This document shows positions 21,261 through 47,875 of a DNA stretch of 47,875 nucleotides, piece after piece. Source of the DNA: Gemmatimonadota bacterium (GTDB taxonomy: Bacteria > Gemmatimonadota > Gemmatimonadetes > Gemmatimonadales > Gemmatimonadaceae); contig VHBQ01000013.1 in the NCBI GenBank assembly GCA_016871855.1, positions 1 to 47,875 on the forward strand, written 5' to 3'. The translations under genes were made by a program, and so were the position numbers. The notes under the pieces are model-generated. The model searched no databases and had not been told where the DNA came from. It saw nothing but the letters and a program-made list of their open reading frames with translations. Positions within the stretch are counted from its first letter, which is position 1; every line of letters begins with the position of its first letter.

Positions 21261-23495
21261 CTAGAACGCCTGCCCGATGGAGAACTGGAAAGCGAGCCGC
21301 TTGAGCACGCTCGTTTCGCGCGGCGGCGCGAACGAGGCTGGACAGGTCCCGCTCTCCTGCAGCATCACGCCGGCCGACGGCGGCGCGCCGAGCGCCGACG
21401 TTGAGACGACGCGCAGCGTGTTGCCGGGACTCACGCAGTACAGCTGGCCGCCCGCGGCGATGGGGGCGTCGAAGTACGCCGCGCCATCGGCGCGCTGATA
21501 CGGATTGTACCCGATGTCCACGCGAATCAACCCGACGAGCGTGCGCACCCGCGCGCCGACACCCGGCGTCCACTGCACCGATCCGATGTTCAGCGGCTGT
21601 GCGGTCCCGCGATTCCACACGCGCCCCGCGTCGGCGAAGAAGGCGAGCTGCAGGATGTCGGCCAGCACCGGGCTGCGCACGCGCGCCTCGAGGTTCGCCA
21701 CGAGCATCGCGTTGCCACCGGTGGGAATGGTGCGCAGGCTCACCGCGTTGGGGTCGGCGCGCAGGTAGACCACCTGCGACGTGTCGGCCGGGTTGCCGCC
21801 GATCGTGCCGTCGGCGCGGACCGTGTCGTACGCCGACACGTTGTAGACCACGGGCCCCAGTTCGTTCTGCCGGAAGCCGCGCACCGTCGTTGCACCGCCC
21901 GCGTAGAGCCGCTCTTGCACCGGCACGTACGCACCCGGCCCGAGCACGGCGCCCCAGCGCAGGCGGGCCGCCAGCACCACATCGGTGCCCAAGGTCACGT
22001 ACGCGGCGCCATCAAGCGTCAAGCGCGTGAACTGCAGGCGCGCGTCGGAGCCGACCTCGCGCGACGCGTGTCGCGCCTCGCCGCGCAGCACCGTGCCGCG
22101 CCCCGGCGACGTGGGGTTGTCTGTGTTCTCCCGCGTGAACGACGCGCCCAGCACCGCCAGCCGCTGGCGACGGAGCAGCACCTCTTGGTCGCCGCTGTCA
22201 CAGGCGTTGAACACCGCGCAGAGAAAGGCGGGGGAACTCTCGGTCTCGCCGTACTCGAGCGTGTAGGACGCCGACTGCGACAGGCGTCCGCTGCCGCGGC
22301 CGAGCGAGAGCGCCGCGCCGATTGGCGTCGTGCGCAGGTAGGCGTTGTACTCGGAGCGGCGCTCGGAGAAGACCGTCAGCGACGGCTGCACCGCGGCGCG
22401 CGCCGACGTCGGCGGCGTGATCGTCACGCTCGTCGAGTAGTTGAGGTCGCCGCCGAAGACGTCCGCGCGGGCTTCGTTGGTGCAGAGCGATTCGAGTCCA
22501 TCGAGCGGCCGGCCCACGCCGATGCGCGAGAGGCGCGCGCGAAGGTCCACCCGCGTCGCGCGACGCCCGACGTTCAGGTGCGTGTAGTCGGCGTAGGCGC
22601 GGAAGCAGTCCAGCGTCCCCCACCCGCCGCCCACGCGCGCATGCTGCATCCGCGCTTCGGCGACGCTCACCGCGACGCGCACCGTGGTGTCGGAGCGCGC
22701 CGTGCCCGTGTCGGGCTCCACGCTCACTTGCGCGAAGAGCTGCCCGGCGTAGAGCGCGCGCTTTGCCCGCTCGAGATCCTGCTGCCGGTACCAGCTGCCA
22801 CTCGACAGGCCAGCGAGCCGACGCACGGTCGCGGTGTCCACCAGCGCGGCGGCCCCGACGGGTCGCACCTGCACCTGCACCACGCCGATGCGCGCGCGCG
22901 TTCCGGGGTGAGCCGTGAACGTCACCGACGCCGCACGACGGTCCGCGTCGGTCTCGTAGTTGACCAGCACCTCGGCGTCGGGATAGCCCCGGTTGCGCAG
23001 GCGGCGCGTGAGCGTGTCGCGCGTCGCCGCGAGCGCGCCGCGATCGAACGGCGCGCCAAGACGCAGCGGCAGGTCACGCGCCACCTCATCGCGTCCGACG
23101 GCGTCCTCGAGCCCCTTCACCTCAAGCGTGCGCACGCGCGTCGGGTAGTCCTCGGTGATCACGAAGCGGACCGCCACCTGCGATGGCGACAGCCGCGTCA
23201 CCATCGTGTCCACCGACACGCCCAGATATCCGTGGTTGCGGTAGAACACCACGAGGCGAATCACATCGCGCGGGAACTCGACGGGATCGAGGCAGTAGCG
23301 CGTGCCGAGGAGCTTGGTCCAGCGCCGCGCCCAGGTGGACGGCGTCGTGGCGATGCCATTGGCGAGCACCGACGACGGGAAGGCGGCGTTGCCGGTGAAC
23401 TCCAGCCGCAGCACCTCAGTGTCACCCCGATCGCAGACGATGTCCTGCGCACGCAGGGCGGCCGGGAACAGGAGGGCGAGGAGGAGGCGGCGCAC
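21261..23495 (-). CDS. BamA/TamA-family outer membrane protein
   Basis: A 744-residue protein from a GTG at 23495, chosen because it gives a clean signal peptide (V-R-R-L-L-L-A-L-L-F-P-A-A-L-R-A-Q). Residues 20-330 hold POTRA-like repeats (V-L-R-L-E-F-T-G-N-A-A-F, V-R-T-L-E-V-K-G-L). The C-terminal half is a 16-strand surface-antigen barrel with the lid-lock motif T-T-V-R-G-F-R near residue 575 and final strands with L-A-F-F-A-D-A-G-R-V-W. Next to tamB it most likely acts as TamA. Upstream codons to 23660 run through an AATCG-type repeat and were excluded. A TTGACA is present about 40 bases before the start but no good -10 is seen. Confidence 0.92.
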   Translation of the reverse strand: MRRLLLALLFPAALRAQDIVCDRGDTEVLRLEFTGNAAFPSSVLANGIATTPSTWARRWTKLLGTRYCLDPVEFPRDVIRLVVFYRNHGYLGVSVDTMVTRLSPSQVAVRFVITEDYPTRVRTLEVKGLEDAVGRDEVARDLPLRLGAPFDRGALAATRDTLTRRLRNRGYPDAEVLVNYETDADRRAASVTFTAHPGTRARIGVVQVQVRPVGAAALVDTATVRRLAGLSSGSWYRQQDLERAKRALYAGQLFAQVSVEPDTGTARSDTTVRVAVSVAEARMQHARVGGGWGTLDCFRAYADYTHLNVGRRATRVDLRARLSRIGVGRPLDGLESLCTNEARADVFGGDLNYSTSVTITPPTSARAAVQPSLTVFSERRSEYNAYLRTTPIGAALSLGRGSGRLSQSASYTLEYGETESSPAFLCAVFNACDSGDQEVLLRRQRLAVLGASFTRENTDNPTSPGRGTVLRGEARHASREVGSDARLQFTRLTLDGAAYVTLGTDVVLAARLRWGAVLGPGAYVPVQERLYAGGATTVRGFRQNELGPVVYNVSAYDTVRADGTIGGNPADTSQVVYLRADPNAVSLRTIPTGGNAMLVANLEARVRSPVLADILQLAFFADAGRVWNRGTAQPLNIGSVQWTPGVGARVRTLVGLIRVDIGYNPYQRADGAAYFDAPIAAGGQLYCVSPGNTLRVVSTSALGAPPSAGVMLQESGTCPASFAPPRETSVLKRLAFQFSIGQAF

Positions 23496-23536
23496 CGGAG
23501 AAATTTCTGTCGCTGCTCTAATAGTTGTCAACAACC

Positions 23537-24169
23537 GAATTAGGATTCGGACCGAGGATTGCGATTCAGGACTACGACCTCGGAACGGGATTGGCGATGG
23601 ATTGGTGGGGGCGGCGTGGGTTTGGTGACGCGACCCGGAGTTGTCGCCGTCATGCTCCACCCATGACGCTTCCTCCTCTCGACTTCGCTGCCTACGAAGC
23701 CAGACCGCCGCGCGCGCTCGATGGCGACCCGCTCTGGCGCACGCGGATGTATCGCATGGCGTCGTACCTCGGAACGCGTTGCCGCGACGACGCCGCGCGC
23801 CTTGGCGCTCGGGTGTCCTTGGACGTCACGCATCAGTTCGTCCGGGCCATCGGCTCGATTGGCGCCAATATCGCCGAGGGGTACTCCCGTGGCGCTCGAC
23901 ACGACCGCGCTCGTTTCTACACGTACGCGCTGGGATCGGTCCGCGAAGCGCTCGTCTGGATCGACGCCCTCGGTGGGACCCCGTGGCCGCCGCGCGATGA
24001 ATACGTGGACTTGCTCGTGCAGATCCGCCGGCAACTGCTGACGGCGATCAAGGCACTCCGCCCGGCGGAGGGCGACACGAAACTGGGGGTGCGTCGCCGC
24101 ACCCCCAATCGCTAATCGCATTCCTCAATCGCCGTCCTGAATCGCAATCCTCGATCCAAATCCTCAATC
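23537..24169. repeat. Long inverted repeat bracketing the four-helix-bundle gene (AATCG/CGATT family)
   Basis: 23537-23572 is repeated in reverse complement at 24134-24169: 36 bp with five mismatches, including 20 perfect bases, CGAGGATTGCGATTCAGGAC (23553-23572). The bracketed interior holds only the gene at 23663. Further AATCG phrases fill 24107-24170. The right arm covers the stop codon of the ferredoxin reductase gene. A related copy is at 41984-42009. Confidence 0.85.
23663..24115 (+). CDS. S23/Avd-like four-helix-bundle protein
   Basis: A 150-residue, wholly helical protein. The segment F-V-R-A-I-G-S-I-G-A-N-I-A-E-G-Y-S-R-G near residue 65 is the signature of the family first found in 23S rRNA intervening sequences and related to the Avd accessory protein of diversity-generating retroelements. 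An E-A-L-V-W-I-D helix follows, then a last helix (Y-V-D-L-L-V-Q-I-R-R-Q-L). Relatives form basic pentameric barrels that bind nucleic acid. The last residues (G-V-R-R-R-T-P-N-R) are encoded by a GGGGGTGCG/CGCACCCCC hairpin at the edge of the repeat. No reverse transcriptase is near. It is isolated between minus-strand genes. Confidence 0.88.
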   Translation: MTLPPLDFAAYEARPPRALDGDPLWRTRMYRMASYLGTRCRDDAARLGARVSLDVTHQFVRAIGSIGANIAEGYSRGARHDRARFYTYALGSVREALVWIDALGGTPWPPRDEYVDLLVQIRRQLLTAIKALRPAEGDTKLGVRRRTPNR

Positions 24170-25180
24170 GTCCTTCTGCCCAAAGACCGCCAAGTTCGAG
24201 GAATGCCCCGGATTGATCTTCTTCTCCGGATAGATCCAGTGGTACCCCTGGTTCACCGCCACCGTCGCGTCGGCGAAGCCCGTGGCGATGAGCTTCAGCT
24301 TGCCAGGATACGTCACGATGTCGCCGGCCGCGTAGATGCCGGGGCGCCCGGTCTCCATCTGTGAGTTGACGACGATCTCGTCCTTCTCGAGCGTCAGGCC
24401 CCACTGCGCCAGCGCGCCGAGGTCGCTCACGAATCCGAGCATCGGCAGCACCACATCACAACGCACGCGGGTGGTGGCCTTGGTCTTCACTCCGCGCAGC
24501 TCGAGTTCATGAATGCGGCCGTCCACCGCGTGGATCTCATGCAATTCATGGAACGTGAACAGCGCTGTCTTCCCCGCGGCGACATCCGCCTGCACCATCT
24601 CCACCGTCGCGTGGTGCGCGCGGAACCGGTCGGTGCGGTGCACCAGCGTCACGCTCGCCGCGCGCCCCTGCAGCTGGTGCGCCCAATCAAACGCGGTGTC
24701 GCCGCCGCCGATGATCACCACGTGCTTCCCCGTGAGTCCGGCGGGGTTGAGCACGCGGTCGTCAATCCCGTTGCCGTACCACGGCGCGGCGCAGGCCTGC
24801 GGCAGCCGACGCGGCGAGAAGGCGCCGATGCCCGCCGCGATCACGATGGCCCGACTCGGAAACTCATCAGTCGCCGTTCGCAGCACAAAGTGCCCGTCCT
24901 CTTCCGCGAGTCCACTCACCACCTGGCCGAGATGAATGGGGTGACCGAAGCGCGCCGCCTGTCGCTCGAGCGCGTGGACGAGGTCCTTCGCGAGCACCTC
25001 GGGGAAGCCGGCGACGTCGAAGATCAGCTTCTCGGGATACAGCGCCGCCAGCTGGCCCCCCGGCTGGTCAAGCGCATCCACGATTTGCGCCGACGCGCCG
25101 CGCATGCCAGCGTAGAAGAGCGCAAAGAGCCCCGTGGGCCCCGCGCCGATGATCGTGAAGTCCCGTAGTTCGTGACGCAT
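24164..25180 (-). CDS. Ferredoxin--NADP reductase (thioredoxin-reductase-like, type 2)
   Basis: A 338-residue flavoprotein. The FAD-binding motif F-T-I-I-G-A-G-P-T-G-L is at residue 8, Q-P-G-G-Q-L-A-A-L-Y-P-E-K at residue 40, the NADPH site V-V-I-I-G-G-G-D-T-A-F-D-W at residue 155, and the second FAD motif G-I-Y-A-A-G-D-I-V-T-Y-P-G-K near residue 285. There is no C-x2-C redox pair, which separates it from thioredoxin reductase and fits the YumC/type-2 FNR group. It moves electrons between NADPH and ferredoxin or flavodoxin. The stop lies in the right arm of the repeat that brackets the neighbouring gene, and the final K-D-D residues are partly encoded by it. Confidence 0.92.
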   Translation of the reverse strand: MRHELRDFTIIGAGPTGLFALFYAGMRGASAQIVDALDQPGGQLAALYPEKLIFDVAGFPEVLAKDLVHALERQAARFGHPIHLGQVVSGLAEEDGHFVLRTATDEFPSRAIVIAAGIGAFSPRRLPQACAAPWYGNGIDDRVLNPAGLTGKHVVIIGGGDTAFDWAHQLQGRAASVTLVHRTDRFRAHHATVEMVQADVAAGKTALFTFHELHEIHAVDGRIHELELRGVKTKATTRVRCDVVLPMLGFVSDLGALAQWGLTLEKDEIVVNSQMETGRPGIYAAGDIVTYPGKLKLIATGFADATVAVNQGYHWIYPEKKINPGHSSNLAVFGQKDD

Positions 25181-25227
25181 CCGTGAAAGCTCGCAACCGC
25201 CCGACGCCGAAACAACCCGCGCTGCTC

Positions 25228-25302
25228 GCTCCCGTCCCCCCGCTCCCGTCCCCCCACTCGTCCCTCCGCTCTACGCCTCCGCACCCGCCCTCGTCCCTCC
25301 GC
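25228..25302. repeat. C-rich tandem phrase repeat upstream of the Ser/Thr kinase
   Basis: GCTCCCGTCCCCCC occurs twice head to tail (25228-25255), then CTCGTCCCTCCGC at 25257-25269 and again at 25290-25302. It fills most of the gap between the divergent ferredoxin reductase and kinase genes, where their promoters would be expected. Confidence 0.75.
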
Positions 25303-25312
25303 ACTCAAGCAT

Positions 25313-29295: not shown

Positions 29296-29329
29296 CATCC
29301 ACCGTCCACCGTCGTCCGTCCACCGTCAC
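29296..29329. repeat. CCACCGTC phrase repeat, left copy of a pair flanking glcD
   Basis: A 34-base block of CCACCGTC phrases. Its reverse complement occurs at 30751-30784 with three mismatches in 34. It lies between the terminator and the glcD start. Confidence 0.85.
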
Positions 29330-29361: not shown

Positions 29362-30816
29362 GTGTCCCTCGCCGCTTCCCTCCGCTCGATCGTCGGCGAC
29401 ACGCACGTCCTCGACCGGCCCGCAGAGCTGCTCGTCTATGAGTCCGACGGCTTGCCGGGGTATCATCGCCTGCCGTCGCTCGCCGTCTTCCCCGCCAACG
29501 CCGACGAGGCGCTTGAGGTGGTGCGCGAACTCGCGCGCGCCGGCGCTCCATTCGTCGCCCGCGGTGCGGGCACGGGGCTGAGCGGCGGCGCGCTCGCCGA
29601 CGGCGTCGTCCTGCTCGGACTGAATCGGCTCAAGCGCATCATCGCCATCGACCCCGTGCGCCGCGTCGCGCGCGTGGAGCCGGGCGTCGTCAATGTCACG
29701 CTCACCAAGGCCGCGGCCGCGCACGGGCTGCACTACGCCCCTGACCCGTCGTCGCAGACTGCCTGCACGCTCGGCGGCAACCTCGCCGAGAACGCGGGCG
29801 GTCCGCACTGTCTGAAGTACGGGGTGACCCTCAACCACGTCGTCGCCGCGCGCGTGGCGCTTCCCGACGGCACGGTCGTGGAGCTCGATGCGGACCACGG
29901 CGGCTATGACCTGATCGGCGCCTTTGTCGGCAGTGAGGGATGCTTCGGCGTCGCGCTCGAGCTGACGGTGAAGCTGACGCCCAATCCGGAGCGCATCGTC
30001 ACCCTGCTCGCCGACTTCTCGAGCGTCGATGACGCCGCGCAGACCGTCTCGTCGATCATCGCCGCCGGCATTCTCCCCGCCGCGCTGGAGATGATGGACC
30101 AGGCCACCGTCGGGGCGGTCGAAGCGAGCATCTACGCGGCCGGATATCCCACCGACGCGGCCGCCGTGCTCCTCGTGGAAGTGGATGGCGCGGCCGCCGG
30201 CCTCGACGAAGATGTGCAGGGCGTCGAGCGCATCTGCCGCGCGCATGGCGCGCGCGACGTGCGCATTGCCACCGAGCCGGCCGCCCGCGCGAAGCTCTGG
30301 CAGGGACGCAAGAAGGCCTTTGGCGCGATGGGGCGCATCGCGCCGCACCTGGTGGTGCAGGACGCGGTCGTGCCGCGCACCAAGCTCCCCGCCCTGCTGG
30401 CGCAGATCGCCGAGATCGGCGCGGCAAACGGCGTCCGCGTCTGCAACGTCTTCCACGCCGGCGACGGCAACCTGCACCCCAACATTCCGTACAACGCCAA
30501 CGACGGTGACGAGGCGGCGCGCGTGCACGTGGCGATGAGGGCCATCATGCAGGCGTGCATCGATGCGGGCGGCACCATCACGGGCGAGCACGGCGTGGGG
30601 CTGGACAAGCTGCCGTATATGGATGCGCTCTTCACTCCCGACACGCTCGATGGGATGTGCCGGCTGCGCGACGTGTTCGATCCGGAGCGGCGGGCGAATC
30701 CGGGGAAAGTCGTGCCGATTCGGTATTGCAGGGAGCGGAGGCCGACGCGAGTGACGGTGGACGGTGGACGGCGGACGGTGGATGCAGGCGACGCGCGGCG
30801 CGGGAGTGCCTCATGA
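29362..30816 (+). CDS. glcD: Glycolate oxidase FAD-linked subunit GlcD
   Basis: A 484-residue FAD-binding oxidoreductase with a GTG start at 29362. FAD-binding PP-loop R-G-A-G-T-G-L-S-G-G-A near residue 70, G-G-N-L-A-E-N-A-G-G-P-H-C near residue 138 and the C-terminal T-G-E-H-G-V-G-L-D-K-L near residue 410 are the vanillyl-alcohol-oxidase/GlcD hallmarks. It oxidises glycolate to glyoxylate with GlcE and GlcF. Homologues end near G-K-V-V-P; here about 25 further residues, rich in Arg/Asp/Gly, are encoded partly by the CCACCGTC repeat (30751-30784). The stop overlaps glcE as ATGA. Confidence 0.94.
   Translation: MSLAASLRSIVGDTHVLDRPAELLVYESDGLPGYHRLPSLAVFPANADEALEVVRELARAGAPFVARGAGTGLSGGALADGVVLLGLNRLKRIIAIDPVRRVARVEPGVVNVTLTKAAAAHGLHYAPDPSSQTACTLGGNLAENAGGPHCLKYGVTLNHVVAARVALPDGTVVELDADHGGYDLIGAFVGSEGCFGVALELTVKLTPNPERIVTLLADFSSVDDAAQTVSSIIAAGILPAALEMMDQATVGAVEASIYAAGYPTDAAAVLLVEVDGAAAGLDEDVQGVERICRAHGARDVRIATEPAARAKLWQGRKKAFGAMGRIAPHLVVQDAVVPRTKLPALLAQIAEIGAANGVRVCNVFHAGDGNLHPNIPYNANDGDEAARVHVAMRAIMQACIDAGGTITGEHGVGLDKLPYMDALFTPDTLDGMCRLRDVFDPERRANPGKVVPIRYCRERRPTRVTVDGGRRTVDAGDARRGSAS
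30751..30784. repeat. CCACCGTC phrase repeat, right copy, inside the glcD 3' end
   Basis: The reverse complement of 29296-29329 with 31 of 34 matches. It lies within the coding sequence and encodes the T-V-D-G-G-R-R-T-V-D stretch of the GlcD tail. Confidence 0.85.
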
Positions 30817-38643: not shown

Positions 38644-39117
38644 GTGGTCCTGGAGCCGCACCGGATCTTGATTGGCACGCCACGCTCGCCGAGATCACGC
38701 TTGCCCGAACACACGCTCCTACATGCAGAGACAACGCGGAAGGTCGTCGGCGCCTTCTACTACGTCTATAACGCACTCGGTTTCGGCTTCCCAGAACCCG
38801 TCTACCAGCGCGCGCTCACGCGCGTGCTCTCACGCACGATGCGAAGGGTTGATCGCGAGCGCCCGGCAACCGTTCTCTTCGAAGGCGTGGATGTGGGGTC
38901 GTTCCGCCTCGACCTCGTGGTTGACGATTGCGTCGTCGTCGAGATCAAGGCGGTCGACCGGTTCCACTCCGCACACGACGCTCAGCTTCTCAGCTACCTC
39001 CGCGCGTCCGGTCTCGAAGTGGGACTCCTTCTCAACTTCGGCCCCCGTGCTGAGTATCGCCGTCTGGTGCTCTCACGCCGGCCCGACACCTACGCGGCGC
39101 CGCGCAGTTCCGGATAG
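38644..39117 (+). CDS. GxxExxY family protein (PD-(D/E)XK-like)
   Basis: Up to 157 residues. The family motif G-F-P-E-P-V-Y follows L-L-H-A-E-T-T-R-K-V-V-G-A-F-Y-Y-V-Y-N. A nuclease-like core is visible: R-L-D-L-V-V-D-D near residue 90 and V-V-V-E-I-K-A-V near residue 100 (the D and E-x-K of PD-(D/E)XK folds), then a Q-L-L-S-Y-L helix and V-G-L-L-L-N-F-G. Homologues begin a few residues before L-L-H-x-E, so a TTG at 38701 is as likely as the GTG at 38644. Function is unproven. It sits beside a phrase-repeat block and overlaps the convergent MFS gene by 28 bases. Confidence 0.88.
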   Translation: MVLEPHRILIGTPRSPRSRLPEHTLLHAETTRKVVGAFYYVYNALGFGFPEPVYQRALTRVLSRTMRRVDRERPATVLFEGVDVGSFRLDLVVDDCVVVEIKAVDRFHSAHDAQLLSYLRASGLEVGLLLNFGPRAEYRRLVLSRRPDTYAAPRSSG

Positions 39118-43635: not shown

Positions 43636-43730
43636 CGATTGGGGGGCGCCGGTCCAGCGGCGCCCCCCAATCGTCTATCGAAATCCGGAATCGATTTCCG
43701 GGATCGAACTCCGGATTCCTCGTCCGCGAT
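43636..43730. repeat. Large hairpin plus AATCG/ATCCGG phrases between gltA and the kinase gene
   Basis: A perfect 15-bp stem CGATTGGGGGGCGCC/GGCGCCCCCCAATCG (43636-43650 and 43659-43673) is followed by iterated ATCG and ATCCGG phrases, including AATCCGGA (43683-43690) and TCCGGATT (43711-43718). The arrangement C5-AATCG-N-TATCG/TAATCG matches the block at 24100-24120 after the four-helix gene. It could end gltA transcription, but no U-tract follows. Confidence 0.8.
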
Positions 43731-45315: not shown

Positions 45316-46119
45316 ATGCCCATCCTCAATCCGGCTGACATCCCGCCCCTCGATCTGCTGAGGCTCACCCTCGTCGCCCTCGCTGCGGCGGGGGGCGGTG
45401 TGGTCAACGCGATCGCCGGCGGCGGGACGCTCCTGACCTTCCCGGCGCTGATTGGGCTCGGCGTGCCCCCGTTGATCGCGAACGCCACGAGCACCGTGGC
45501 CCTCTGGCCGGGGACGCTGACCAGTTTCTGGGGCTACCGGGACGCCCTGAGCGGGGCGCGCGCCTGGACGGTCCGCTGGGCGCTCCCCAGCCTGCTGGGC
45601 GGGATCACCGGCGCCGTCCTCCTTCTCTGGACACCGGAGCGGAAATTCGCTGACAGCGTGCCGTGGCTCATCTGGGGCGCGACCTTGCTGTTCATGATGC
45701 AGGCGCCGCTGATGCGCTGGGTTATGGGGCACGCCGCCGCGATTCCCGACGGCGCGGAACTGCCGCCACCGCGCACCGGATTCCTTGTGTACCAGTTCCT
45801 CGTCGCGATCTACGGCGGCTACTTCGGCGCCGGCGCGGGCATCCTGATGCTCGCGGCCCTGGGGATGATGGGGCTCACGAACATCCACACGATGAACGGC
45901 CTCAAGAACTGGGGCGGGCTGAACATCAACATTGTCGCCGTGCTGATCTTCGCGGTGAGCGGCATCGTGAGCTGGCCGATCGCGCTCACGATGGCCATCG
46001 GCGCGGCGGTGGGGGGGATGCTCGGCGCGCGGATGGCCCAGCGCGTGGGACAGCACTGGGTGCGCCGCGCGATCATCGCCATCGGGGTGCTCGCGGGGGC
46101 GTGGACGCTGTACCAGTAG
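45316..46119 (+). CDS. TSUP (TauE/SafE) family sulfite/organic anion exporter
   Basis: A 267-residue membrane protein with about eight helices in two repeats. First repeat: N-A-I-A-G-G-G-T-L-L-T-F-P-A-L near residue 32, then N-A-T-S-T-V-A-L-W-P-G. Second repeat: Y-G-G-Y-F-G-A-G-A-G-I-L-M-L near residue 168. Both are TauE/SafE signatures. Family members export sulfite, sulfonates or similar anions; the substrate here is not known. I chose the ATG at 45316 because the membrane part starts soon after it. Confidence 0.93.
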   Translation: MPILNPADIPPLDLLRLTLVALAAAGGGVVNAIAGGGTLLTFPALIGLGVPPLIANATSTVALWPGTLTSFWGYRDALSGARAWTVRWALPSLLGGITGAVLLLWTPERKFADSVPWLIWGATLLFMMQAPLMRWVMGHAAAIPDGAELPPPRTGFLVYQFLVAIYGGYFGAGAGILMLAALGMMGLTNIHTMNGLKNWGGLNINIVAVLIFAVSGIVSWPIALTMAIGAAVGGMLGARMAQRVGQHWVRRAIIAIGVLAGAWTLYQ

Positions 46120-46120
46120 A

Positions 46121-46215
46121 GAGAGACAACAGAGAGACAACAGAAAAACAACAGAGAGACAACAGAAGACGGCGGCCGTCACTGTTGTCTCTCTGTTGTC
46201 TCTCTGTTGTCTCTC
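46121..46215. repeat. Inverted arrays of an 11-bp unit (GAGAGACAACA)
   Basis: Four 11-bp units on the left (46121-46131, 46132-46142, 46143-46153 degenerate GAAAAACAACA, 46154-46164) face three reverse-complement units TGTTGTCTCTC on the right (46183-46193, 46194-46204, 46205-46215). The centre has GACGG/CCGTC. Together they form a very long stem between two convergent genes and fill the gap exactly. Confidence 0.92.
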
Positions 46216-46220
46216 CGCCG

Positions 46221-47875
46221 TTACGGCTTCGTCCGCTTCCCCCACGTCGGCGGCGGCGGCTCCTTCAGCGCCCGCTGCACCGGCTTGGCCGCCAGCAGGC
46301 GCAGCGCCTCCTGCACCGCGCGCTCGAGCTGCGGGTCGCGCCCGGCCGCGATGTCCTTGGGCCAGTTCTCCACGTCAATGTCGGGAGCGGTGCCAACGTT
46401 CTCCGAGTCCCACTGGTTGTCGCGGCGGAAGAAGCCGCCGCGCGGCGCGATCATCGAGCCACCGTCAATGAACCCAGGCGTGTCGGCGGTGTGCACCAGG
46501 CCGCCCCACGTGCGCTTGCCGACCAGCGGGCCAATCTTGCGGTGCTTGAACATCCACGGCATCAGGTCGCCGCCCGAGCCGGCCTGCTCGTTGATGATCA
46601 TCACCTTCGGCCCCCAGATCCCCGCCGCCGGGCTGGTGAACGGCACGCGGTCGCCGGCCACGTTGTTGAAGTAGCCGTCGAAGTCGCGCTGGAGCACGTC
46701 GATGATATAGTCGGCCGCGGAGCCGCCGCCGTTGAAGCGCTCGTCGATGATGGCGCCCTGGCGATCCTGCTGCGCGAAGTAGTAGCGGTTGAAGCTCGTG
46801 TAGCCTGGCTGGCCCGTATTCGGCAGGTGCACGTACGCCAGCTTCCCGCTCGACAGCGAGTCCACCACCCGGCGGTTGTGCTCCACCCACGCGCGCGAGC
46901 GCAGCCCCTGATCGCTGCCCACGGGGATCACCGTCACCTTCCGCGCCCCCTCCGCCACGGGCTTGTCGTTGAGCAGCAGGACGGTCTGCCGATTGGCCGT
47001 GCCGTCGAGCAGGCGGTGGAGGTTGTCGGGCGCGCGCAATTCCTCGCCGTTGACGGCGATGAGGTAGTCGCCAACGCGCGCGTCAAGCCCCGGCACCGCG
47101 AGCGGGGCGCGAAGCTCCGTGTTCCAGCTCTCGTTGTCGTAGATGCGCGTGATCCTGTAGCGCCCCTGGTCAACCACGAAGTCGGCGCCCAGCTGGCCAC
47201 CGGTCGGCGTCGGCACCGCGGGCATATCGCCACCACGCACGTAGGAATGGCCAATGGCGATCTCCGCCCCCATCTGGTCGAGCAGGTAATTCAAGTCGGC
47301 GCGGTGGTTCACGAACGGGAGCATCACGCCGTACATCGTGCGCATCTTCGGCCAGTCCGCGCCGTGCATGTTCGGCACGTACAGGTAGTCGCGCTGATTG
47401 CGCCACCCTTCATTGAAGATCTGTTGGAACTCCTGCTTCGGGTCGATCCACGCGCGAAGTGACGCGTTGAGCCGCCCCGCCCCTGTCTGCGGCGGCGCGC
47501 CAGTGGCATCCACGATGAAGAGCGACGGCCCCGCCGGTGCTGCGCCGGCCCCCGGCGGACCGCCAAATCCGCCGCCCGTGCGGTACAGCAGCTTGCGTCC
47601 ATCGTGGGAGACATCAAATCCGGCGATGCCGGTCACGAACACCGTCGCCCGCCGGTCACGCAGTTGGTAGCGGTGCAGCGTGTTGCCGCCGCCGCCCGAG
47701 CCCGTTCCCGTTGCGGGCACGGCTTCGCTGAGAAAGACCGTGCCGGCGGCTCCCGCCTCAAGCTTGATGTACGGACGGTTTGCGACTCCCGGCACGCTGA
47801 CGATGCGTGATGACAGTCCGTCGAAGTCAATCGTGACGGAGGCGGCGGGGCGTGCGGCCGCACCGCCGGCCGGCG
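46221..47875 (-). CDS. Tricorn-type serine protease, C-terminal part (5' end outside window)
   Basis: 551 codons are visible and the frame is open to the window edge, so the start and N-terminal propeller lie beyond it. The visible order fits tricorn/S41 proteins: the end of a beta-propeller (I-D-F-D-G-L-S-S-R-I-V-S-V-P, F-D-V-S-H-D-G-R-K-L-L-Y), a helical C1 region, a PDZ domain (D-A-R-V-G-D-Y-L-I-A-V-N-G), then the peptidase core. Likely catalytic residues are His in I-G-H-S-Y-V, nucleophile Ser in Q-A-G-S-G-G-D, and Glu in S-E-N-V-G-T-A-P-D. Tricorn degrades oligopeptides; bacterial forms may be periplasmic. A 11-bp repeat array follows the stop. Confidence 0.92.
   Translation of the reverse strand, partial: PAGGAAARPAASVTIDFDGLSSRIVSVPGVANRPYIKLEAGAAGTVFLSEAVPATGTGSGGGGNTLHRYQLRDRRATVFVTGIAGFDVSHDGRKLLYRTGGGFGGPPGAGAAPAGPSLFIVDATGAPPQTGAGRLNASLRAWIDPKQEFQQIFNEGWRNQRDYLYVPNMHGADWPKMRTMYGVMLPFVNHRADLNYLLDQMGAEIAIGHSYVRGGDMPAVPTPTGGQLGADFVVDQGRYRITRIYDNESWNTELRAPLAVPGLDARVGDYLIAVNGEELRAPDNLHRLLDGTANRQTVLLLNDKPVAEGARKVTVIPVGSDQGLRSRAWVEHNRRVVDSLSSGKLAYVHLPNTGQPGYTSFNRYYFAQQDRQGAIIDERFNGGGSAADYIIDVLQRDFDGYFNNVAGDRVPFTSPAAGIWGPKVMIINEQAGSGGDLMPWMFKHRKIGPLVGKRTWGGLVHTADTPGFIDGGSMIAPRGGFFRRDNQWDSENVGTAPDIDVENWPKDIAAGRDPQLERAVQEALRLLAAKPVQRALKEPPPPTWGKRTKP

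Follow-up and report, generated by a model that had tools for sequence, protein, structure and literature searches.

Three kinds of described system stand closest to the locus examined here, namely REP/REPIN repeats with RAYT genes, 23S rRNA intervening sequences that hold an S23 ORF, and Avd of diversity-generating retroelements, together with heptanucleotide arrays as a class of simple repeats. A repeat family tied to a partner gene is a defining feature of REP/RAYT systems, and the RAYT genes are kept at low copy number and inherited vertically. Short tandem repeats with a 7-nt unit are abundant in bacterial genomes and their origin is not agreed; the cyanobacterial STRR occur in hairpins of structural RNAs. 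Passages of PMC3733652 describe a RAYT (TnpA-REP) gene flanked by repeats of a dispersed, palindromic and mostly gene-less family, and report that transposase genes and the REP or TIR families show no obvious correlation. For S23/IVP proteins, whose function is given as not known in the relevant part of PMC4990558, the same part describes a Coxiella IVS in which the S23 ORF lies in 23S rRNA within a terminal stem of 28 bp that RNase III cuts, and mentions a reported homopentamer of X. campestris S23p. According to an excerpt of PMC3936711, IVP genes were also noted in cas loci. For the TAACTGA arrays of Beggiatoaceae, a section of PMC4679880 considers an unknown repeat-binding protein as a mobile element; the terms '23S' and 'four helix' are absent from that paper. 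Among the open-access matches listed, no title or abstract start connected tandem-repeat hairpins with S23 or 'four helix bundle protein'.

The window, that is, the whole stretch of 47,875 nucleotides analysed, is contig C13 of a 2.99-Mb draft genome (85.6% complete) of a Gemmatimonadota bacterium. It holds a single S23 gene between two inverted arms, as well as several arrays that enclose no gene:

21261..23495, minus strand: BamA/Omp85-like gene (PF01103, PF07244), the left neighbour, syntenic across the genus.
23536..23598, plus strand: left arm, G-rich on the coding strand, made of degenerate 13-nt units and pairing with 24108-24170.
23663..24115, plus strand: S23 (23S rRNA-intervening-sequence protein) gene, predicted four-helix bundle, 150 aa.
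24085..24106, plus strand: G+C-rich hairpin across the S23 3' end, on the gene side of the right arm, recognised by eye and paired in the fold.
24108..24170, plus strand: right arm, a tandem array with a 13-nt unit, overlapping the end of the reductase gene.
24164..25180, minus strand: ferredoxin/thioredoxin-reductase-like gene (PF07992), the right neighbour, syntenic across the genus.
25224..25305, plus strand: gene-less array in the reductase-kinase intergenic region, from array calls with the right end set by eye.
29298..29327, plus strand: gene-less 7-nt array TCCACCG, by eye of the unit family of the arms of S23 locus L002.
30751..30784, plus strand: gene-less 7-nt array GACGGTG, by eye of the L002 arm family, with polarity opposite to the array at 29298..29327.
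43677..43715, plus strand: gene-less array whose 13-nt unit resembles, by eye, the arms of the window S23 gene.
46118..46221, plus strand: hairpin without a gene, formed by two 11-nt arrays (AGAGAGACAAC) in inverted orientation, the unit of the S23 site A arms in sibling species.

The 36-bp inverted repeat that the initial annotation placed around the gene is real, with 4 mismatches in 36 positions rather than the five counted there, and its assignment of the protein to the S23 family was correct. Specifically, the protein matched PF05635 at 46.2 bits (cut-off, 33.8), and this was the sole Pfam match, at E 0.001, of the single gene between the arms. The predicted structure was a four-helix bundle like XCC0516 and BT_0352; single-sequence structure prediction of the protein was poor (63.1). 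No transposase was found between the arms, and an HUH tyrosine transposase was likewise absent, the only gene there being the PF05635 gene, modelled as a four-helix bundle. The terminal inverted repeats form a stem around the ORF, and the transcript folded with its arms paired (z -6.25). The hairpin at 24085..24106 is a possible terminator, and a similar one was seen by eye between S23 and the right arm at locus L001. The window sequence gave no Rfam match at gathering score, and the flanks are the BamA-like and reductase genes, not 23S rRNA. The locus resembles the rRNA intervening sequences of Leptospira and Coxiella in that the same protein family lies inside an inverted-repeat stem. It differs in having tandem arrays as arms, of which many relatives without a gene exist.

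S23 genes generally lie between inverted tandem arrays, usually of period 7, whose units are locus-specific and whose G-rich arm comes first. Six PF05635 genes were present in the source genome, five of them bracketed by inverted repeats. The arm unit differed by locus (10-11 nt at L001, 7 nt at L002, longer and purine-rich at L003, 13 nt at the window locus and 24 nt at L005), and the six genes had different flanks with no arms in common. The locus without bracketing arms, L006 (1159-1340), is accompanied by a CACGGAGACACGGAGGG hairpin on a single side. In Gemmatimonadaceae, S23 genes were found in 95 of 118 genomes, in up to 14 copies. Among 36 family loci, comprising the six own loci and the best locus of each of 30 other genomes, 30 had an arm score above 17.5, the maximum of 144 mismatched pairings, and the other six had no arms above this control maximum. 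When loci below 3100 bases were dropped, and with gene boundaries only approximate at a few truncated loci, scores above 17.5 were obtained for 23/27 and 24/31 S23 loci, for 0/26 loci of a PIN control and for 0/16 of a reductase-like control. None of the 31 loci of the genus S23 set exceeded the 95th percentile of the mismatched control, which is useless for this set because orthologous flanks pair with each other.

The same arrangement was found across phyla, where at least 586 confirmed S23 relatives were identified in named bacterial and archaeal genomes and 80, from many phyla, were kept. With both flanks available (n = 75), 43 loci exceeded the 99th percentile of mismatched pairings and only 4 exceeded their maximum, because the loci share one repeat style, which raises the scores of mismatched pairs. 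Autocorrelation of the flanks peaked at lags 7, 14 and 21 only, and at lag 7 it was 0.63/0.61 (n 78/77) beside the S23 genes versus 0.42/0.43 (n 72/70) 1.2 kb away. The arm 5' of the gene was G-rich on the coding strand in all 58 cross-phylum loci with an arm score of at least 15 and, within the family, in 28 of 31 loci (exceptions, L021, L036 and L040). Unlike the rRNA intervening sequences, none of the 80 cross-phylum loci had an Rfam rRNA match within up to 2.5 kb on each side, a weak negative, as metagenome bins often come without rRNA; no link to rRNA genes was seen. One S23 relative (L123) is in a record that carries the label Methanophagales archaeon, so perhaps the family extends to archaea, unless this bin is mixed.

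Among 43 plasmid records, S23 surroundings were inspected in six. Two cyanobacterial plasmid copies had low arm scores (11.0 and 11.5). In another phylum, a Calothrix plasmid carries S23 with inverted TAGGGTG-type arms (70774-70805 and 71250-71282) and, at 48243-48281, a TAGGGTG-type array without S23; four further lag-7 arrays with other units occurred in the 150 kb read, a single example without a contrasting case. On two plasmids of Calothrix brevissima NIES-22 (L372 and L373), S23, with heptamer arms that are the same on both, stands beside a phage-integrase-family gene. In a Riemerella plasmid record (L377), an iron-sulfur assembly accessory gene is followed by S23 (arm score, 20), and in a second record (L376) an S23 match comes before sufB.

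Inverted repeats also often bracketed PDDEXK_3 (GxxExxY, PF13366) genes (L160-L189, e.g. L182, L184 and L176), with 13 of 28 scoring over 17.5. Their arms mostly follow another grammar, CACRGAGG-like, with a period of about 9-10 by eye and no lag-7 peak, and these genes and arrays are possibly a second gene-plus-array system. The window itself contains a GxxExxY-type gene (38644-39117, plus strand; PF13366 match at 38728-39063) with a CGCGGAT-repeat hairpin upstream and no clear bracketing pair (score, 12).

Copies of the arm sequence of the window locus occur elsewhere in the genome. With up to 2 mismatches, a pattern derived from the arms matched the own genome at 13 places (reversed control, 0), and none of them was located at any of the six S23 genes. 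By eye, about eight matches were arrays of the window arm unit (L007, L008, L009, L011, L012, L013, L016 and L019), four were 7-nt GATGGCG-type arrays (L014, L015, L017 and L018), and one (L010) was coding in appearance. The 13-nt tandem-repeat family of the window arms had 80 overlapping pattern matches in this genome. A 400-kb sample of the genome, in which two stretches overlap and S23-bearing contigs were included deliberately, contained 68 arrays, half of them (34) with an inverted partner and 34 without. The loops of gene-less hairpins were mostly 2-86 nt. Long loops belonged to the S23 sites A and B, to one further case of 149 nt, and to a pair separated by 766 nt that also possesses a nearer partner. 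By eye, the main unit families of the sample were the arm units of sites A (10-11 nt), B (7 nt) and D (13 nt), site D being the window locus. At a coding fraction of 0.89, 30 of the 37 array clusters lay outside called genes; the seven inside were counted with a codon-bias-scored ORF caller, which replaced a poor first caller (26/37). Moreover, gene-less arrays turn over between siblings. Among three array sites with orthologues, one was present in 0/8 orthologues and the other two were one site common to two species. The window array at 25224..25305 was not seen at the same place in 10 siblings when the intergenic sequences were compared by eye.

For S23 itself, no movement was seen. The BamA-S23-reductase order was retained in 10 of 11 genus genomes, and a recent insertion of the window locus is ruled out by this synteny. 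Sites A, B, D and F were each common to several or all genus genomes, with site A in 7 and site B in every one of the 11, in one case through a match to a single flank. Only genome G120 has no S23 at the window site (L060), and the absence looks like a loss because a degenerate, worn-looking left arm remains (by eye); a clean empty site between the BamA-like and reductase genes, as sought at first, was not what this genome offered. The initial annotation had proposed that the locus is a minimal moving unit, to be abandoned if the gene proved conserved in place and the arms also occurred without it, and both were found. The initial interpretation is thus partly supported, and in place of a simple mobile unit we see S23 genes coupled to families of hairpin arrays that are dispersed in the genome. 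The bracketing arms and the idea that gene and arms belong together, as first supposed, stand.

Sequence comparison indicates that the two arms of one S23 site change together between species. The site B unit varies by species (for example GGTAGAC, GGTAGAG, GGCAGAT and GGGAGAC), and as a rule both arms of one species carry related variants (by eye). The left arm of each species was paired with its own right arm and with the right arms of other species at the same site. Own-arm pairing scored 27.4 versus 17.2 with sibling-species arms at site D, 31.3 versus 17.7 at site B (0/20000 permutations for both) and 35.1 versus 23.7 at site A (p 0.009). At L229, arm pairing was lost (8.0).

Three array families were found to follow their S23, in counts of overlapping pattern matches on both strands of the 11 genus genomes, four of which are 78-87% complete and one of which, G120, carries two of the three matches. 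An 11-mer pattern had 51-233 matches in all 7 genomes with a site A S23, whose arms are AGAGARACAAC or related 10-11-nt units, and 1, 1, 0 and 0 in the other four; its reversed control was not zero (0-85 matches), in positive genomes only. A 13-mer had 25-146 matches in the 10 genomes with the window's S23 and 0 in G120 without it, with a reversed control of 0 in all genomes. An 8-mer of the G120 S23 arms had 116 matches in G120 and 0 in the other 10. The scarcity of the 13-mer in G120 and the confinement of the 8-mer to it were predicted before counting. At site A, the intergenic region of three species is short and contains neither a gene nor, by eye, arms, and in G120 an S23 with 8-nt arms adjoins the same right-hand gene, similar at its start. 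At this site of G120 (L241 and L371), further genes lie between LptG and S23, unlike in the siblings; from their sequence, we take them to be MlaE/MlaD-like.

At site A, S23 and array family correspond, but the exact unit does not always agree. In G112, with site A arms of GCAGAGARAAA, 5 of the 50 listed matches carry the arm variant and the rest are AGAGARACAAC-like, and in the own genome the site A arms have a 10-nt unit and gene-less arrays of both 10 nt and 11 nt occur. The history of site A speaks for more than one gain or loss, of which the well-supported branches alone force only one. In none (0%) of 200 bootstrap trees did the three species with an empty site A form a single group, and G119 (51 11-mer matches) grouped with G062 (1 match) with support of 88/92, in a tree from about 4.6 kb of concatenated pieces; the reductase-gene tree alone was unresolved.

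Lag-7 arrays were surveyed in chosen, non-random stretches, the own sample being partly picked for S23 contigs. The 12 genomes lacking S23 (788 kb) yielded 0 such arrays and the 21 genomes bearing it (about 1.6 Mb) yielded 86. The own genome accounted for 47 of the 86, two of these being S23 arms, and 39 remained in about 1.2 Mb of S23-bearing sequence without it. Within genus g19, the 128 kb lacking S23 had 0 lag-7 arrays and the 235 kb bearing it had 11. At least one lag-7 array occurred in 14 of the 21 S23-bearing genomes; the 7 with none in the sampled sequence, including G004 (8 S23 genes, 120 kb sampled), may use units of other periods. Arrays of period 9-10 were observed, 1-4 each, in stretches of some S23-lacking genomes (G045, G114, G065, G076 and G073), and they are therefore not tied to S23.

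From comparison of the loci with respect to bracketing, period, polarity, concerted arm change and co-occurrence of three families with their S23, we favour, with moderate confidence, a partnership of the REP/RAYT kind, in which the S23 protein would recognise the hairpins of its family and act with a host enzyme to preserve and propagate them. The window S23 would be the dedicated partner of the dispersed 13-nt hairpin family, sitting inside one of its members, and its paralogues would each have a hairpin family of their own. The helical bundle, of the S23/Avd type, would recognise the G-rich-first hairpin as RNA or single-stranded DNA. The host enzyme would be a polymerase, a nuclease or, in trans, a reverse transcriptase, and together with S23 it would keep the two arms alike and seed gene-less copies into intergenic DNA. 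Binding, the partner enzyme and a role of S23 in causing the spread of arrays, rather than only in preserving them, are what we infer from the sequences; as to causing or preserving, the present data would fit either. Our confidence is lowered because the dispersed units of G112 mostly differ from its own arm variant.

The likeness to REP/RAYT systems is that the S23 gene is framed by a repeat of a dispersed family with gene-less copies and that the array family is tied to a partner gene in three cases, a closer tie between gene and family than the passages of PMC3733652 report for RAYTs. In contrast, S23 is a four-helix bundle instead of an HUH tyrosine nuclease, and the repeats are tandem arrays of 7- to 13-nt units in which the unit drifts and both arms stay alike.

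The main rival to this partnership is that S23 is an RNA-binding regulator, the dispersed hairpins being its binding sites at gene ends, held by selection on many transcripts, and its own arms an autoregulatory site. Units and protein would then co-evolve like a regulator and its operators, and sites would decay once the regulator was lost, so the same match of family and partner is predicted; the position of most array clusters outside called genes and the paired arms of the folded window transcript agree with this as well. Less expected of a regulon, albeit not excluding it, are the differences in arrays between siblings at the few comparable orthologous intergenic sites and the number of sites, up to hundreds of overlapping matches per genome. 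We hold a regulator with many hairpin sites to be a genuine possibility, though not a likely one.

It is improbable that S23 elements insert into the loops of pre-existing hairpins, as in 23S rRNA, while an unrelated enzyme spreads the hairpin families. A precedent is the Coxiella IVS, placed in helix 45 with a terminal inverted-repeat stem in the portion of PMC4990558 that treats it, and gene-less hairpins with short loops are common in the own sample; however, lag-7 arrays were absent from the sampled S23-lacking sequence, and each of the three tested families comes and goes with a particular S23. More improbable still is a minimal mobile unit, in which one gene with terminal inverted repeats is moved whole in trans. 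The arms do bracket a single gene, and three species do have site A intergenic regions with neither gene nor arms (by eye), but sites A, B, D and F are shared within the genus, and the six own S23 genes, with their different flanks, lack common arms, yet gene-less arrays of one unit are many. In the multi-copy comparison with a DNA transposon bearing terminal inverted repeats, the different flanks of the six genes are set beside the three species with neither gene nor arms at site A. That ordinary polymerase slippage makes the 7-nt arrays, with S23 nearby by chance or through a common site preference, is scarcely credible: heptanucleotide repeats are the commonest long simple-repeat class in most genomes studied, as cited in a passage of PMC4679880, but related units stand inverted on both sides with constant polarity, no lag-7 arrays occurred in the sampled S23-lacking genomes, and the families match their partners.

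The partnership of S23 and hairpin families could be taken further. The TAACTGA arrays of Beggiatoaceae and the cyanobacterial STRR resemble the arrays described here in being intergenic 7-nt arrays. S23 might be a widespread repeat-writing system that copies a short unit, or synthesises it from a template, into G-rich-first arrays, perhaps, like Avd in retroelements, by way of a reverse transcriptase in trans. The 7-nt repeats, including the cyanobacterial STRR, would then be its gene-less products, the rRNA intervening sequences with S23 would be an offshoot, and PDDEXK_3 maybe a second system. We regard this wider proposal as doubtful.

The match between S23 genes and hairpin-array families joins two open questions, namely the function of S23/IVP proteins, which occur in many phyla, and the origin of 7-nt repeats, and it makes both testable by simple binding and deletion experiments.
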